This document shows, piece after piece, positions 1,051-38,858 of a stretch of 60,281 bases of DNA; position 1 is the stretch's first letter; each line of letters starts with the position of its first letter. The translations under genes were made by a program, and so were the position numbers. The stretch lies in contig CABYHU010000006.1 in assembly GCA_902518715.1 (NCBI GenBank), positions 1 through 60,281 of the forward strand. Direction: 5' to 3'. The notes beneath the pieces were generated by a model that worked only from the letters and a program-made list of their open reading frames with translations, was not told the DNA's origin and ran no database searches. The DNA comes from an uncultured SAR86 cluster bacterium (lineage in GTDB: Bacteria > Pseudomonadota > Gammaproteobacteria > Magnimaribacterales > D2472).

Positions 1051-2013
1051 TTGTCACTTTCTACAAACCTCTTAGATGCATTGTCTCCAAAAAATAAAAT
1101 TTTTGTAGCTTTTAGTGGAGGACTGGACTCAACAGCACTTTTATTTTTATGTAAAAAAGCCTTAAAACAAAAAAAAATAAATAATTTAAAAGCTATTCAT
1201 ATAAATCATAATCTTTCAAAAAATAGTGACAACTGGCAGCAGCATTGTGAGAGTTTTTGCAGGAGTAATAATATTGAATTTGATTCTTTCATGGTAGAAG
1301 TATCAAAAAATAGATCCAGTATTGAGTCGCAGGCAAGGCAGGCAAGATATAAAATTTTTGAAAGCCTGTTAGATAAAAATGATCAGATTTTATTAGCTCA
1401 TCATAGAGATGATGTTTTTGAAACTATTCTTCTTAGGCTATTCAGAGGAACAGGAGTTGATGGTCTCAGTGGTTTAAATGAAAAAAGATCACTAGGTAAA
1501 GGAGAAATAATAAGACCTTTTTTAAACTTATCTAAATCTGATTTGGAAATTTTCGTTCATAAAAATGATTTGCCATTCGTAGAAGATGATACAAATTTAA
1601 ATAATGATTTTGATAGAAATTTTTTGAGAAATGAGATCATACCATCCCTTGAAAAAAGATGGAGCAAACTTGCTGAAAGGGCTGCACTAACCTCATTAAC
1701 GGCAAAAAAGAAAAAACTTTCATTAGATTTCATGCTTGAAAACAACTTTAAAAAAGAAATTTCTACAGGCATCATTGAAAGAGCAAAATTTATTGAGACA
1801 CCTTCCTTCTTAATAGAAGAGTTAATAAGATTAATTTTAAGAAAGAAGGGTATTGCACTACCTAGTCAGAAAGTTCTGTCTGAAATTATGAATGTATTTT
1901 TTCATAAGAAACCTTCAAATGAATCATATGTTGAGTGGTCAAGGAAAGATGGCGAGCAAATTGGAGGAAAAGTCTTCTCAGAGCATAATGATATAATTTT
2001 GAAAAAAAAATAA
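1051..2013 (+). CDS. tilS: tRNA(Ile)-lysidine synthetase
   Basis: Attaches lysine to C34 of tRNA-Ile(CAU), changing its decoding from AUG to AUA. The PP-loop ATP pyrophosphatase motif FSGGLDST lies at about residues 21-28. The start is TTG, one base after the accA stop; it puts the PP-loop at the normal distance from the N-terminus and no closer ATG fits. At 320 residues it is about 110 shorter than the E. coli enzyme and looks like the compact form lacking most of the C-terminal tRNA acceptor-binding domain. The gene sits in the conserved accA-tilS neighbourhood. Confidence 0.93.
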   Translation: MSLSTNLLDALSPKNKIFVAFSGGLDSTALLFLCKKALKQKKINNLKAIHINHNLSKNSDNWQQHCESFCRSNNIEFDSFMVEVSKNRSSIESQARQARYKIFESLLDKNDQILLAHHRDDVFETILLRLFRGTGVDGLSGLNEKRSLGKGEIIRPFLNLSKSDLEIFVHKNDLPFVEDDTNLNNDFDRNFLRNEIIPSLEKRWSKLAERAALTSLTAKKKKLSLDFMLENNFKKEISTGIIERAKFIETPSFLIEELIRLILRKKGIALPSQKVLSEIMNVFFHKKPSNESYVEWSRKDGEQIGGKVFSEHNDIILKKK

Positions 2014-2027
2014 CCTATAATTTAATT

Positions 2028-2810
2028 ATGAATACTGAAACACTTCAAATAAATATTGAATCACCTATAGCAACAGTCACATTAAATAGACCTAATGTTT
2101 TAAATGCTTTTAATGAGCAGTTAGTTCTAGACCTCCAACAAGCATTTAAAAGTTTGACTGAAGATGAATCAGTGAGGGTAATTATTCTCACCGGCTCAGG
2201 GAAAGGGTTTTCAGCAGGAGCTGACCTAACTGAAAGAGAAGCAAGTTGGGATCCTGACTGTCCATCAAAAGACGCTCTTCTTCGTGGTTATATGCCTATT
2301 TTCAATAATATTGTTGAAATGCCAAAAATTGTAATAGCTGCAATTAATGGTCCAGCAGCTGGTATTGGAGCAGCATTGGCGATGGCCTGTGATCTAAGAG
2401 TTATGACAAAATCATCATATATTCTTTCAGTTTTTAGCAATATAGCGCTTGTTCCTGATGGCGGATTAAATTGGCTTTTAACAAGATTCTTGGGATATGC
2501 AAAGGCTCTTGAATTTGCTATTGAAGCAAAAAAAATAGATTCACAAATGTGTTTAGATTTTGGTATTGCTAATAAAGTTGTTGAAGATAATAAGCTTCTT
2601 GAGGAGACATACTCCTGGGCAAATTCATTAGCGAAAAGATCACCTCAAGCGCTTTCAAACACCAAAAGACTAATGAGAGACTCTTTAAGTAAATCTTATT
2701 TTGAGACTTTCAAACAGGAAGCAGAAATTCAAAATGATATTTTTGGGTCCTCTGAACACAGAGAAGCTGTCCAAGCGTTTTTTGAAAAGAGGCAACCTAA
2801 ATTTGATTAG
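2028..2810 (+). CDS. Enoyl-CoA hydratase/isomerase family protein
   Basis: 260-residue crotonase-fold enzyme. The oxyanion-hole segments are visible: GKGFSAGADL near residue 60 and INGPAAGIGAALAMACDLRV near 105. The usual second glutamate of hydratases lies around SNIALVPDGGLNW (about 137-150), where the catalytic position is occupied by Asp-Gly, so hydratase versus isomerase activity cannot be settled here. Such enzymes act on 2-enoyl-CoA in fatty-acid or phenylacetate-type degradation. It starts 14 bases after tilS on the same strand. Its stop overlaps that of the convergent leuA by 4 bases. Confidence 0.88.
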   Translation: MNTETLQINIESPIATVTLNRPNVLNAFNEQLVLDLQQAFKSLTEDESVRVIILTGSGKGFSAGADLTEREASWDPDCPSKDALLRGYMPIFNNIVEMPKIVIAAINGPAAGIGAALAMACDLRVMTKSSYILSVFSNIALVPDGGLNWLLTRFLGYAKALEFAIEAKKIDSQMCLDFGIANKVVEDNKLLEETYSWANSLAKRSPQALSNTKRLMRDSLSKSYFETFKQEAEIQNDIFGSSEHREAVQAFFEKRQPKFD

Positions 2811-4468
2811 ATTAGTTTAGCTACTCCAACAATAATGGCTTCAAATGAAGCTTTTGTAGTATTTGGATTTATACCAACACCCCAACTTGTTTTGTCACCT
2901 TTTTGGAGTTCAATATAAGCAGCAGCTTGAGCATCAGAGCCAGATGAAATCGCACTTTGATGATAATCAGATACTTTTATATCAATTGATAGTTTTTGAT
3001 TCAGTGCATTTACAAATGCGTCAATTGGACCATTACCTGAACCAGATATTTCATGGTTTATACCATCAATTTCAATTTCAGCTTTAATATGATCACTTAA
3101 ATCAGTTGCATCTGAAGTTTTTAAGGAATAGTTTTTAAAACTATGCCCAGATTTTGGCATGACAAAGTTTGTATGAAAGATTTCCCAAATCTCTGATGTT
3201 GAAATTTCTTTACCAGTCTCATCAGCAATTTTTTGTATCTTCTGACTCATGCTTATTTGAAGCCTTCTAGGGAGAGACACGCCGTGATCTTTTTCCAATA
3301 GAAAAGCAACGCCTCCTTTTCCAGATTGTGAATTAATTCTCACAACGGCTTCATAAGTTCTCCCAAGGTCTGCAGGATCAATTGGTAAATAAGGCACTTC
3401 CCATTGCGGGTCATTAGAGCTTCTTAATGCATTTAAACCTTTTTTGATGGCATCTTGATGCGATCCCGAGAAAGCTGTAAAGACCAAATCTCCGGCATAG
3501 GGATGTCTGGGATGGACGGGTAGCTGATTACAGTATTCAACTTCTCTCATAACATTATTAATTTGTGAAAAATCTAAATTAGGATTTATACCTTGGCTAT
3601 ACATATTTAGAGCTAAGGTTACGATATCTACATTTCCTGTTCTTTCTCCATTACCAAATAACGTTCCTTCAACCCTATCTGCACCTGCCATTAAGCCAAA
3701 CTCAGAAGCAGCTATTGCTGTACCCCTATCATTATGCGGATGAAGTGAAAGACATATATTTTCCCTATTTTTAAAGTTCTCACTCATCCATTCTATTTGA
3801 TCTCCATATATATTTGCCGTTGACATTTCAACTGTTGCAGGAAGATTAATAATAATTTTATTATTTGAAGACTCTTTTAATATATCAACAACGTCATCGC
3901 AAACCTTTACTGCATAATCTAGCTCAGTTCCAGTGAAACTTTCAGGAGAGTATTCAAATGACCAATTAGTGTTTTTATATTCACTTGATAACTCTTTGAT
4001 TAATTTTGCAGCATCCGTTGCAATTTTTTTAACTCCTTCTTTATCTTTATCAAAAACAACTTTTCTTTGAAGAGTTGAAGTCGAATTATAAAAATGAAGA
4101 ATTGCATTAGGAGCTCCATCAAGAGCTTCGAAAGTTCTCTTTATAATTTCGGGTCTAGCTTGAGTAAGAACTTGAATAGTTACATCAGAGGGGATAACTT
4201 TTTCGTTAATTAAATATCTTGTGAAATCAAAATCAGTTTGTGATGCAGCCGGAAATCCAATCTCAATCTGTTTAAAGCCAATTTTGCATAATAGATTAAA
4301 CATTCTTTTTTTTCTTTCATCTCCCATTGGTTCAATAAGAGCTTGGTTTCCATCGCGCAGGTCTACAGAGCACCAAATAGGAGCATTTTCTATAACTTTT
4401 GAAGGCCATGACCTGTTTTCCTTGCTTACAGGCTTATATGGCTTATATTTTTTATTTGTTTTATCCAT
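2807..4468 (-). CDS. leuA: 2-isopropylmalate synthase (long, yeast/actinobacterial-type)
   Basis: 553 residues. Condenses acetyl-CoA with 2-oxoisovalerate, the first committed step of leucine synthesis. The N-terminus (KYKPYKPV... then WPSKVI) and the SVDLRDGNQAL motif near residue 34 are those of the longer class found in yeast and actinobacteria rather than the E. coli type. The metal-binding LHPHNDRGT motif is near residue 240 and GNGERTGNVD follows near 270. The C-terminal part matches the allosteric leucine-binding domain. It stands alone, without leuBCD, and is transcribed divergently from the holD-like gene only 29 bases away. Confidence 0.95.
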   Translation of the reverse strand: MDKTNKKYKPYKPVSKENRSWPSKVIENAPIWCSVDLRDGNQALIEPMGDERKKRMFNLLCKIGFKQIEIGFPAASQTDFDFTRYLINEKVIPSDVTIQVLTQARPEIIKRTFEALDGAPNAILHFYNSTSTLQRKVVFDKDKEGVKKIATDAAKLIKELSSEYKNTNWSFEYSPESFTGTELDYAVKVCDDVVDILKESSNNKIIINLPATVEMSTANIYGDQIEWMSENFKNRENICLSLHPHNDRGTAIAASEFGLMAGADRVEGTLFGNGERTGNVDIVTLALNMYSQGINPNLDFSQINNVMREVEYCNQLPVHPRHPYAGDLVFTAFSGSHQDAIKKGLNALRSSNDPQWEVPYLPIDPADLGRTYEAVVRINSQSGKGGVAFLLEKDHGVSLPRRLQISMSQKIQKIADETGKEISTSEIWEIFHTNFVMPKSGHSFKNYSLKTSDATDLSDHIKAEIEIDGINHEISGSGNGPIDAFVNALNQKLSIDIKVSDYHQSAISSGSDAQAAAYIELQKGDKTSWGVGINPNTTKASFEAIIVGVAKLI

Positions 4469-4497
4469 TTAATTCTTCAAAATGTTAACATCAAAAA

Positions 4498-4920
4498 ATG
4501 TTTGATACTAAGTCATCCTTTATTTTATCTAAATTAGGCATCCAGAGGTTTCAATCTCAAATAAATAACTCAAATTCAGAAGTAATATTTGGCGTACTTT
4601 GGGGCGATATTCTAACACTCTTGGACAAATCATTTAATGAATTAGAAGAAAATGAATTAAAGTTATTAATTAAAATAATAAAATCTATTCTCGAAGATGC
4701 TGGCGATTATCCTTTTTCTAAAGAAATAAATAATCTAAGTGAAATAAAGAAGAAACCAAAACTTATAATCTCCTTTACAGGCTCGAAGCAAAATCTGATA
4801 AAAGAATTTTCCCCAATAATTGAATCTAAACCTCTTTCTATACTTGAAAATAGTCTAGAGGATAAGAAAACATTATGGTCAAAGATAAAGGAACATAAAA
4901 ATGCATCTTCAGCTGGCTAG
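4498..4920 (+). CDS. holD: Putative DNA polymerase III psi subunit (HolD-like, divergent)
   Basis: 140 residues, close to E. coli HolD (137). HolD bridges the clamp loader to HolC and SSB. The protein shows two spots of resemblance at the right places: an N-terminal KLGIQRF (residues about 12-18; E. coli has QLGITQW) and a C-terminal KTLWSKIKEHK (about 124-134; E. coli ALWQQICTYEH). The gene overlaps the rimI start by 20 bases, as holD overlaps rimI in enterobacteria. Sequence similarity by eye is weak elsewhere, so the call rests on length, end motifs and context. Otherwise it would be a hypothetical protein. Confidence 0.62.
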   Translation: MFDTKSSFILSKLGIQRFQSQINNSNSEVIFGVLWGDILTLLDKSFNELEENELKLLIKIIKSILEDAGDYPFSKEINNLSEIKKKPKLIISFTGSKQNLIKEFSPIIESKPLSILENSLEDKKTLWSKIKEHKNASSAG

Positions 4921-5338: not shown

Positions 5339-5812
5339 AACCTTCTCAATTTCCTTTCTAATATACTTTGGTTCAACTCTCGGACTAAACCTTTCAACAA
5401 TTTTACCGTTATTGTTAATGAGAAATTTTGTAAAGTTCCACTTTATTGACTGAGTTCTAAAAATGCCAGGTTTATCGCTTTTAAGTAATTTAAATAGAGG
5501 ATGCGCTTCAGGACCATTTACTTTAATTTTAGAAAAAATTGGGAAAGTTACCGAGTAGTTAATATCGCAGAATTTACCAATTTCTTGATCACTACCAGGC
5601 TCTTGTCCACCAAATTGATTGCATGGGAAACCAAGGACAACAAAATCTCTATCTTTATAATCATCATATAGTTTTTGCAGACCTTCATATTGAGGAGTAA
5701 GGCCGCATTTACTTGCAACATTAACAATTAAAAGTGTTTTCCCTGCAAACTCAGACATACTAATATTGCTATTAGCTGAGTCCTTTACATCAATATTATA
5801 TATATCAGCCAT
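5333..5812 (-). CDS. Glutathione peroxidase family (thiol peroxidase)
   Basis: 159 residues, the normal bacterial length, with no signal peptide, so cytoplasmic. The peroxidatic residue is cysteine, not selenocysteine (ASKCGLT, Cys36). The other members of the catalytic site are visible: Gln in FPCNQFGGQEPG near residue 73 and Trp-Asn in KWNFTKFLIN near 125. Reduces hydrogen or organic peroxides; many cysteine-type members use thioredoxin rather than glutathione. Convergent with rimI (6-base overlap of stops), divergent from the ElaA-like gene 81 bases away. Confidence 0.95.
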   Translation of the reverse strand: MADIYNIDVKDSANSNISMSEFAGKTLLIVNVASKCGLTPQYEGLQKLYDDYKDRDFVVLGFPCNQFGGQEPGSDQEIGKFCDINYSVTFPIFSKIKVNGPEAHPLFKLLKSDKPGIFRTQSIKWNFTKFLINNNGKIVERFSPRVEPKYIRKEIEKVL

Positions 5813-5893
5813 CGATCTTTAGAAGCCTTTTGAAAAAGTTAATTTGTAGAAATATCTCCCTTAGCGCTATTATACAGCATTAAATTTTGTATT

Positions 5894-6352
5894 ATGACTA
5901 ACAATTTTAACTTCATTTGGCGCAATTTTAATTCTATCTCAAAAGATGAACTTTATGATGTTTTAAGTCTCAGACAAAGAGTTTTTATAATTGAACAAGA
6001 TTGTTTATATGAAGATTTAGATTATTCTGACCAAGATGCAAACCATCTCCTTCTTTATAAAGATAATAAGTTAATAGGATACTCTAGGGTTTTTTCACCT
6101 GGTATTAAATATGATGCCGCCTCAATAGGGAGAATAGTTACTGATTTAGATTATAGAGGAAAAGGTTATGGAAAGGGCATTACTCATGAATCTATCCAAT
6201 TTTTGAAAAATAATTTCCCTGAATCTGACATTACTATATCTGCACAATATAGACTAGTTGATTTTTACGAAAATCTTGGCTTTGAAACAGAAGGAAATGT
6301 TTACCTAGAAGATGATATTGAACATATTAAGATGACCTTAAAAAGTAAATAA
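5894..6352 (+). CDS. elaA: ElaA-like GNAT family N-acetyltransferase
   Basis: 152 residues. The N-terminal pattern LYDVLSLRQRVFIIEQDCLYEDLD (quoted in part: LRQRVFIIEQDC, about residues 23-34) is characteristic of the ElaA family, and the acetyl-CoA loop is DYRGKGYGKGI near residue 87. The substrate of ElaA is unknown. The gene stands alone between divergent gpx and a lipoprotein gene on the same strand. A family member is clear; whether it is the orthologue of E. coli elaA is inference. Confidence 0.82.
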   Translation: MTNNFNFIWRNFNSISKDELYDVLSLRQRVFIIEQDCLYEDLDYSDQDANHLLLYKDNKLIGYSRVFSPGIKYDAASIGRIVTDLDYRGKGYGKGITHESIQFLKNNFPESDITISAQYRLVDFYENLGFETEGNVYLEDDIEHIKMTLKSK

Positions 6353-38250: not shown

Positions 38251-38286
38251 TCAAATTACGTTAAATATACTTTTGAGGTAATTTGA
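38251..38286 (+). repeat. Inverted repeat downstream of pnp
   Basis: TCAAATTAC (38251-38259) and GTAATTTGA (38278-38286) are perfect 9-base inverted copies around an 18-base loop. It lies 11 bases after the pnp stop and 62 bases before the small membrane protein gene. It could be an A/T-rich terminator or 3' stability stem for pnp, or an operator; no T tract follows. Confidence 0.4.
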
Positions 38287-38347
38287 AAACCATCATCAAT
38301 TTTGGTTTCATATGCGTGTTAACCATTACCTTTATAGGGGGGGAATT

Positions 38348-38566
38348 ATGGATAATGCAATGAAAATGATTGGTGATATAGTATCAAGTCTTACAAAGAT
38401 TCTTGTTGCTGTTATCGGATTAGGTGTTGTAGCTGGTATCGTTTTTGGTGATACATGGTTCTTCGGCGATGTTCTTTCAAATCTTCTAGGTGTTGTTTCT
38501 TCACTTGGTGATGCTGGACTCGTTGGATTACTTGTTGCTGCTATCCTAATAGGATTGCTTAAGTAA
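38348..38566 (+). CDS. Small two-segment membrane protein A (unknown family)
   Basis: 72 residues from the ATG at 38348, chosen because a G-rich ribosome-binding site (GGGGGG, about 38337-38343) precedes it; an in-frame ATG at 38312 is possible but has no such site. I do not recognise a family. Residues about 14-34 form a hydrophobic helix, then a short loop with FGDTWFFG, then SNLLGVVSSLGDAGLVG leading into a second hydrophobic helix to the end. Clearly related to the next gene: both share the order G-x-x-F-G, S-N-L, G-D-[AS]-G-[LV]-V and a hydrophobic tail. No signal peptide distinct from the first helix. Confidence 0.75.
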   Translation: MDNAMKMIGDIVSSLTKILVAVIGLGVVAGIVFGDTWFFGDVLSNLLGVVSSLGDAGLVGLLVAAILIGLLK

Positions 38567-38578
38567 TCATTTATTGTT

Positions 38579-38606
38579 TCAAAGGGAGATTAATTTCTCC
38601 CTTTGA
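38579..38606 (+). promoter_or_regulatory. Strong hairpin between the two small membrane protein genes
   Basis: TCAAAGGGAGA (38579-38589) pairs perfectly with TCTCCCTTTGA (38596-38606) around a 6-base loop, an 11-base-pair stem unusually GC-containing for this genome. No T run follows on either strand, so it is not a canonical intrinsic terminator. It starts 12 bases after gene A and ends 15 bases before gene B. It may protect the mRNA of A from 3' decay, or control B. Confidence 0.6.
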
Positions 38607-38621
38607 CTTAAAATCTCAAGA

Positions 38622-38858
38622 ATGAAGCTAGATTTTTACTACTCATTAAACAAAATCAAAAGTTACCTCAAACAGGTCACAGATGTTCTTCTGGTTGTAG
38701 TAGCAGTTGCTCTACTGCTAGGAGTTCTTTTTGGTCCTGATGCACCGTTTGTCGGAGCAGTATATTCAAACCTTGTTACCATATTAGATACGATTGGGGA
38801 TAGCGGAGTTGTTGCTCTTGTATCCTTGATAATAATCTTTTTAATAAACAAGAAGTAG
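38622..38858 (+). CDS. Small two-segment membrane protein B (paralogue of A)
   Basis: 78 residues. Unknown family. A basic N-terminal segment (NKIKSYLKQ) leads into a hydrophobic helix at about residues 20-40, then FGPDAPFVGAVYSNL, then TIGDSGVVALVSL and a second helix ending in NKK. The spacing and shared residues with protein A show tandem duplication followed by divergence. There is no clear ribosome-binding site after the hairpin (only AAG). It ends 4 bases before the 3' end of the convergent tRNA-Met. Positive-inside reasoning would put both ends in the cytoplasm. Confidence 0.72.
   Translation: MKLDFYYSLNKIKSYLKQVTDVLLVVVAVALLLGVLFGPDAPFVGAVYSNLVTILDTIGDSGVVALVSLIIIFLINKK

Follow-up and report, generated by a model that had tools for sequence, protein, structure and literature searches.

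SieA of phage P22 is described as a phage inner-membrane protein that blocks DNA entry (PMC10883804), and Imm of phage T4 (83 aa) carries the annotation "immunity membrane protein". Marine T4-like phages (Melnitz, pelagimyophages) are described as carrying CsgGF outer-membrane pore genes, for which a role in lysis timing has been proposed (PMC9004378), and in the Rhodobacter puf operon segmental mRNA stability is reported to make the small membrane subunits exceed the products of the downstream genes (PMC6238624). A predicted SAR86 phage is known from metagenomes, according to PMC5332604.

Here we consider two adjacent genes, A and B, from a SAR86 genome of 1.06 Mb, and the homologues of A in marine phages. 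Like SieA (by its description) and Imm, phage A would be a small phage inner-membrane protein acting at the membrane; however, A shows no homology to Imm (membership in that family was rejected, hhalign P-value 0.45), it usually has a barrel-like partner gene, and bacteria hold a paired version. With holins and pinholins A shares its length, two helices and an occasional place before a lysozyme-domain gene, but it has no holin family match, and in most phage A loci no lysis gene was seen close by. The CsgGF phages are likewise phages of streamlined marine bacteria with an outer-membrane protein of unclear use, although the genes are different and the available part of PMC9004378 mentions no two-helix partner resembling A. 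The likeness to puf consists in an intercistronic hairpin and in small membrane subunits that would be in excess, whereas no relation in sequence is claimed and an effect of the hairpin on the A:B ratio is only presumed.

The gene pair and its predicted products

The first-pass annotation of the window (the whole stretch of 60,281 nt analysed here) described two adjacent ORFs of 72 and 78 codons with a common layout, set in their own intergenic space and separated by a strong hairpin, and all of this was borne out (Table 1). Gene A starts 108 bp from pnp, the spacer between A and B is 55 bp, and the pair is followed by a tRNA-Met gene on the opposite strand, which precedes ychF, opposite in strand to A and B. 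An in-frame ATG at 38312 would extend A to 84 aa; the downstream start is favoured because of the ribosome-site-like run that ends at 38345 and because of the alignment of relatives. Between pnp and A there is an imperfect inverted repeat, TCAAATTAC...GTAATTTGA (38252-38290), which recurs in the g1 genomes. An Rfam scan returned the tRNA alone above threshold.

Table 1. Window coordinates of the two genes and of the signals accompanying them
Feature	Position	Strand	Basis or comment
Gene A, 72 aa, predicted two-helix inner-membrane protein, proposed major subunit	38348..38566	+	
Gene B, 78 aa, paralogue of A, proposed minor subunit	38622..38858	+	
Strong, purine-rich ribosome-site-like run 5' of A	38336..38345	+	Sequence; duplex energies of A versus B
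Intergenic A/B hairpin, 11-pair stem, terminator- or stabiliser-like	38579..38606	+	Position conserved across lineages, sequence different

Both proteins contain FG ahead of the loop, SNL and GD[AS]G[LV]V. The match between them is restricted to the second half in BLASTP (E 3e-6), is found again by tblastn in their own genome (E 3.7e-7), and extends over 74 columns in the profile-profile comparison (probability 99.0%, E 4e-18). On these comparisons A and B are homologous beyond chance. In a FastTree phylogeny of 121 short sequences 39 of the 42 B proteins form one clade (support 0.96), in agreement with the old duplication suggested earlier.

No recognised family could be assigned, as had been the case on first reading. 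Credible matches were found neither in Pfam (best E 0.0031, DUF6366, which is matched by three of 37 B members at E<=1), nor in NCBIfam (queried with A and B of the window only), PHROGs (best E 0.036 for A/B and 0.098 for phage members) or PADLOC (best E 0.013). The sequence search of PDB gave no match for A and six incoherent ones for B (best E 0.046); for the A and B models, Foldseek against PDB gave none at E<=10, and a second structure search none at Z>=2. Named phage and plasmid records had no match to A of L064, named phage records had none to A of L263 and L242, and no name for the family was found in the literature at title level. Two specific candidates were rejected. The match of B to TrbL/VirB6 (PF04610) has 14.7 bits versus the Pfam cut-off of 25.9, with two of 37 B members matching at E<=1. 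The F-type ATP synthase subunit c has a conserved acidic residue in its second helix; the mean D+E count in helix 2 is 0.21 in 38 cellular A proteins, and 0 in 41 phage A and 42 B proteins.

The loop together with the middle helix is acidic in all three groups, the mean K+R and D+E counts being 0.11 and 2.55 in cellular A (n = 38), 0.10 and 1.98 in phage A (n = 41), and 0.48 and 2.60 in B (n = 42). The C-terminal ends are positive in each group; the N end is positive in B and neutral on average in A. As the loop is acidic and the C ends are positive, both ends are predicted to be inside and the loop on the periplasmic side, and these charges fit the inner-membrane placement suggested previously for both proteins. 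A cytoplasmic C end also fits the long lysine-rich C-terminal tail of a B-like relative in genome G325. L117 (8887-9435) encodes a B-like protein that ends in a lysine/threonine-rich tail of 100 residues. Within the helices of A and B no residue that is polar or charged is conserved. G57 occurs in all 79 A proteins and in 40 of 42 B proteins; G60 is likewise found in all 79 A proteins, but in only five of 42 B proteins. AlphaFold models both proteins as helical hairpins with weak to moderate confidence (A, pLDDT 79, pTM 0.40; B, pLDDT 85, pTM 0.52).

The window hairpin has a free energy of -17.9 kcal/mol (z -5.9 versus mononucleotide shuffles). Strong hairpins (z<=-2) occur in 70 of 71 distinct A-B spacers (median dG -20.7) and in 24 of 84 same-strand control spacers (Mann-Whitney p 1e-22), where the A-B spacers come from related genomes and hence are not independent, and the control spacers lie between mechanically called ORFs. 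The stem sequence differs among SAR86 families, SAR92, SAR11 and f105, and in L123 the change affects both sides of the stem; as the stems differ between lineages, the position of the hairpin appears to be kept while its sequence turns over. In the window only 15 nt separate the hairpin from the start of B, leaving no room for a separate promoter 3' of the hairpin.

At the ribosome site the median duplex energies are -9.8 (A) and -1.7 (B), with A the stronger at 66 of 81 loci, counted without deduplication. In a ranking of the 58 window ORFs by codon use A comes first, the contrast being weak in this genome, and its ribosomal-codon signal is likewise weak (95 of 5000 simulations, with a small contrast); codon use thus agrees weakly with an excess of A. 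From these sequence features, A looks like the major subunit and B like the minor one. By analogy with the puf operon we infer that the product of A is in excess over that of B, since the hairpin would end or stabilise most transcripts after A.

The pair would then constitute two unequal subunits of an inner-membrane complex built from helical hairpins, co-assembled with both ends inside and with the acidic loop and middle helix in the periplasm. The hetero-oligomer had already been proposed in the first-pass annotation, and we consider an unequal complex of this kind probable; the pairing of A and B in unrelated neighbourhoods, the conserved hairpin and the ribosome-site difference all point to it indirectly.

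Distribution, constraint and apparent exchange in bacteria

In the SAR86 order 89 of 101 genomes were matched by A as the query, with two matches each, and at every SAR86 locus examined A is followed by B. The same order was observed in Porticoccaceae/SAR92 (nine of nine loci) and in SAR11 (two of two loci, from records named Pelagibacter or Pelagibacteraceae). A alone was found at seven loci of Woeseia-like and other gammaproteobacteria, two of the seven coming from one bin. In the gammaproteobacterial bin JAPYQN two contigs (L188 and L191) each have a single A gene, the two genes being different. In an evenly drawn class sample eight of 369 genomes matched at E<=1e-9 (a further 20, at E 0.002 to 0.1, were not counted as members); five of the eight are outside the order and belong to four families, with pairs in G201, G317 and G438 and single copies in G422 and G325. 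In the phylum sample (398 genomes) the only strong match was in the genome of the window itself.

Among the 12 genomes of the order without an A match, ten also had no match in the profile search, and G052 and G082 had weak partial matches. The true ychF is also missing from G006, G052, G060 and G075, and in G079 and G082 ychF is situated at a contig end; in these six genomes A is likely missing through an assembly gap or a contig end. In genus g12 (G062, which is complete, and G089) and in G077 A seems to be truly absent.

The expectation that the pair would be found after pnp holds for three SAR86 families and is not general. The pair is localized between pnp and ychF in f1, f2 and f4, with extra genes in f2 and f4; in f3 it lies among other genes, and among other genes again in the non-SAR86 lineages. 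Thus, the order of A and B is kept while the neighbourhood changes. No barrel gene was seen near cellular A in any locus read. At four loci a 105-aa membrane protein is encoded 3' of the pair (L186, L192 and L198, about 5630-6144; L178, 5821-6138), and its second half resembles the A motif, G-G-L-P-V-I-G-G. In the Porticoccaceae loci L171, L172 and L175 ORFs resembling, by eye, lycopene cyclase, blh and idi of the retinal pathway lie 5' of the pair (about 1850-4820). The link to proteorhodopsin prompted by these ORFs was rejected, as the presence of A does not track PF01036: G422, G317, G201, G325 and G438 have A without PF01036, and G062 and G089 have PF01036 without A.

Both copies are retained under constraint among the closest relatives, as had been supposed: compared with L119, L120 and L121, the window has no nonsynonymous and three to four synonymous changes in A, and zero to one nonsynonymous and nine to 25 synonymous changes in B. 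At larger distances the behaviour of A is different from that of its neighbours. In 34 syntenic loci (561 pairs, not independent) A is near-identical (pN<0.05) while pnp differs (pN>0.1) in 33 pairs, all between g1 and g5; the reverse pattern, where A differs and pnp is near-identical, was observed in 13 pairs, all of them including L130 or L139. Between the window and L123-L128 (g1-g5) pS is 0.18-0.36 in A and 0.69-0.74 in pnp. Codon constraint alone does not explain these low values, as pS of A is similar to that of other genes in comparisons with L133, L147 and L144 (0.62-0.65); it is lower with L151 (0.51). In L123/L124 versus g1 the synonymous differences concentrate in the final third of A; the permutation counts for the three pairs, which were picked after viewing the alignment, are 79, 21 and 9 of 20000. 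No such clustering was observed in L126-L128.

For the window and L139 the nonsynonymous and synonymous differences are 22/14 in A, 2/15 in B, 5/80 in pnp and 28/81 in ychF (Fisher test for A: p 1.9e-10 versus pnp, 7e-4 versus B, 1.5e-4 versus ychF). Weaker pairs are the window and L129, not significant versus ychF (p 0.19), and L119 and L139 versus B (p 0.05); the signal comes from few alleles (L130, L138/L139, L129) in non-independent pairs. Judged by these substitutions, host A alleles look swapped between genera, with an excess of amino-acid change compared to the flanking genes.

In the tree of 121 sequences the phage A proteins are split among four positions. f112 has a single A, which groups as sister with A from phage L292 (support 0.99), and A of one SAR86 f4 genome (L073) falls among phage sequences (0.65-0.93), being the sister of the seven phage sequences of a smaller tree (0.97). 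These trees suggest that A has been exchanged between cells and phages, in one direction or the other.

The same data bear on an alternative in which A and B form a small membrane complex with a housekeeping function, such as helping another membrane machine to assemble or to remain stable, and phages have copied it for reasons other than exclusion. Such a complex would fit the near-universal presence of A in SAR86, the strong constraint among the closest relatives and the strong ribosome site of A, but not its patchy occurrence outside SAR86, its apparently true absence from g12 and G077, or the apparent swapping of its alleles, and we regard it as a somewhat unlikely explanation.

Phage homologues and their neighbours

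The first alignment retrieved five relatives from viral contigs. With the phage alignment, 389 pattern stretches were obtained, of which 214 were confirmed as A-like by tblastn at a candidate-relative threshold; the 80 best of the 214 were retained. The 82 phage loci examined form 41 A clusters at 90% identity. The contigs are of phage origin, since neighbours of A match phage families of PHROGs: tail sheath and tube (L240), terminase and portal (L292), clamp loader (L234) and thymidylate synthase (L250). B was not found among 22 stretches retrieved from viral contigs with a limited pattern. As far as sequence can tell, this is an unnamed family, of which several marine bacteria have two unequal members side by side and many marine phages have one.

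A barrel-like outer-membrane gene lies within four genes of phage A in 28 of 41 clusters, being directly adjacent on the same strand in 26; the remaining 13 clusters have no such neighbour within four genes. In 21 of the 28 the gene belongs to one main family and is always adjacent on the same strand; the other seven are TorF-like, five of them adjacent. Reciprocally, in 80 loci fetched with one barrel-like gene, which partly overlap the first set of phage A loci, A is situated 26-93 bp downstream on the same strand in 59. In the other 21 loci A is 2.6 kb upstream in one and not found in 20, of which four have less than 150 bp of contig downstream and 16 have room for it; in a lineage where the barrel gene occurs without A, the downstream gene is another small ORF. 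PF09694 was found in three of five TorF-like phage proteins tested. Members of the main family match PF13505 below the cut-off (E 0.0018 and 0.0039) and have a signal-peptide-like start. Going by these profile matches, some TorF-like proteins can be called barrels with confidence, and the main family weakly so.

The other neighbourhood to be considered is that of lysis genes. If phage A were a small holin or a lysis regulator, the cellular pair would be a domesticated holin/antiholin-like pair. Its small size and two helices agree with this, as do the two of 41 clusters (five loci) where A directly precedes a lysozyme-domain gene and the one cluster (17 loci) where it lies in a lysis cassette with an amidase, a PF05105 holin and a coiled membrane protein. 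However, a lysis-type gene occurs within 8 kb in only four of 41 clusters (by BLAST with few examples), one of these genes being a tail lysozyme; the lysozyme of L230 has its best PHROGs matches among tail-lysozyme families; and the lysis cassette already contains a holin. Matches of A and B to holin families do not exceed chance: the best holin profile for A is phrog_2879 (E 6.3), and Phage_holin_Dp1 (E 0.081) is matched by one of 37 B members. A strongly translated holin in nearly all SAR86 genomes would also be hard to explain. Phage homologues exist and two clusters precede a lysozyme-domain gene, in line with the holin guess made on first reading, but the commoner neighbour is the barrel-like gene, and we consider a holin unlikely. 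In L385 (132-3411) we observed, by eye, a row comprising A, a small coiled ORF, a lipoprotein-like ORF, a DUF5675-like ORF, a coiled membrane protein and a barrel gene. The presence of A in the same stretch as the DUF5675-like ORF and the coiled membrane protein would suit a holin, and this row may be a lysis cassette. For a bacteriocin, the other guess made at first reading, nothing was found in support.

The barrel gene itself could also indicate uptake, with a phage outer-membrane porin and an inner-membrane pore feeding the infected cell and the cellular pair acting as an inner-membrane channel. Phage and SAR86 TorF-like proteins resemble each other (30-39% identity in many pairs), and the layout of helix, loop, middle helix and helix is compatible with a pore. 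Also in favour, host TorF-like genes adjoin, by eye, P-II or ammonium-transporter-like genes in L216, L221 and L224. On the other hand, the helices lack a conserved polar or charged residue, no channel family is matched, TorF-like genes do not adjoin host A at the loci read, and the main barrel family is weakly barrel-like. Uptake also seems to us an improbable role.

Proposed role and significance

We rank an exclusion-like role first for two reasons: outer-membrane genes accompany phage A far more frequently than lysis genes do, and the alleles of cellular A seem to be exchanged and to diversify. Under exclusion, marine phages would use an A of their own, in most cases together with an outer-membrane barrel protein, to modify the envelope of the infected host, most likely so that competing phages are shut out, much as by SieA and Imm. 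Cellular A would be the counterpart met by infecting phages, which may account for the swapping and diversification of its alleles. The entire chain, from the unequal complex of A and B to the use of phage A with the barrel for exclusion, is put forward tentatively, as a possible course of events. In a still more specific version, which we think rather doubtful, the barrel and A of the phage would be an envelope module that imitates the host's two entry points as a decoy and shuts out rivals at each membrane; in the bacterial version, rich in A and capped by B, phage pressure would drive the turnover of alleles.

SAR86 and SAR11 rank with the most abundant bacteria of the surface ocean, and little is understood about their infections. 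A nameless family that is present in nearly all SAR86 genomes searched and is carried by more than 200 viral contigs, often with a second envelope gene beside it, raises a testable question: which membrane step is altered by the phages, and is the bacterial pair the phages' target or their model? The A-B hairpin provides a clean case in which RNA structure may preserve a subunit ratio despite turnover of its sequence. If true, an envelope module common to marine bacteria and their phages would be previously undescribed.
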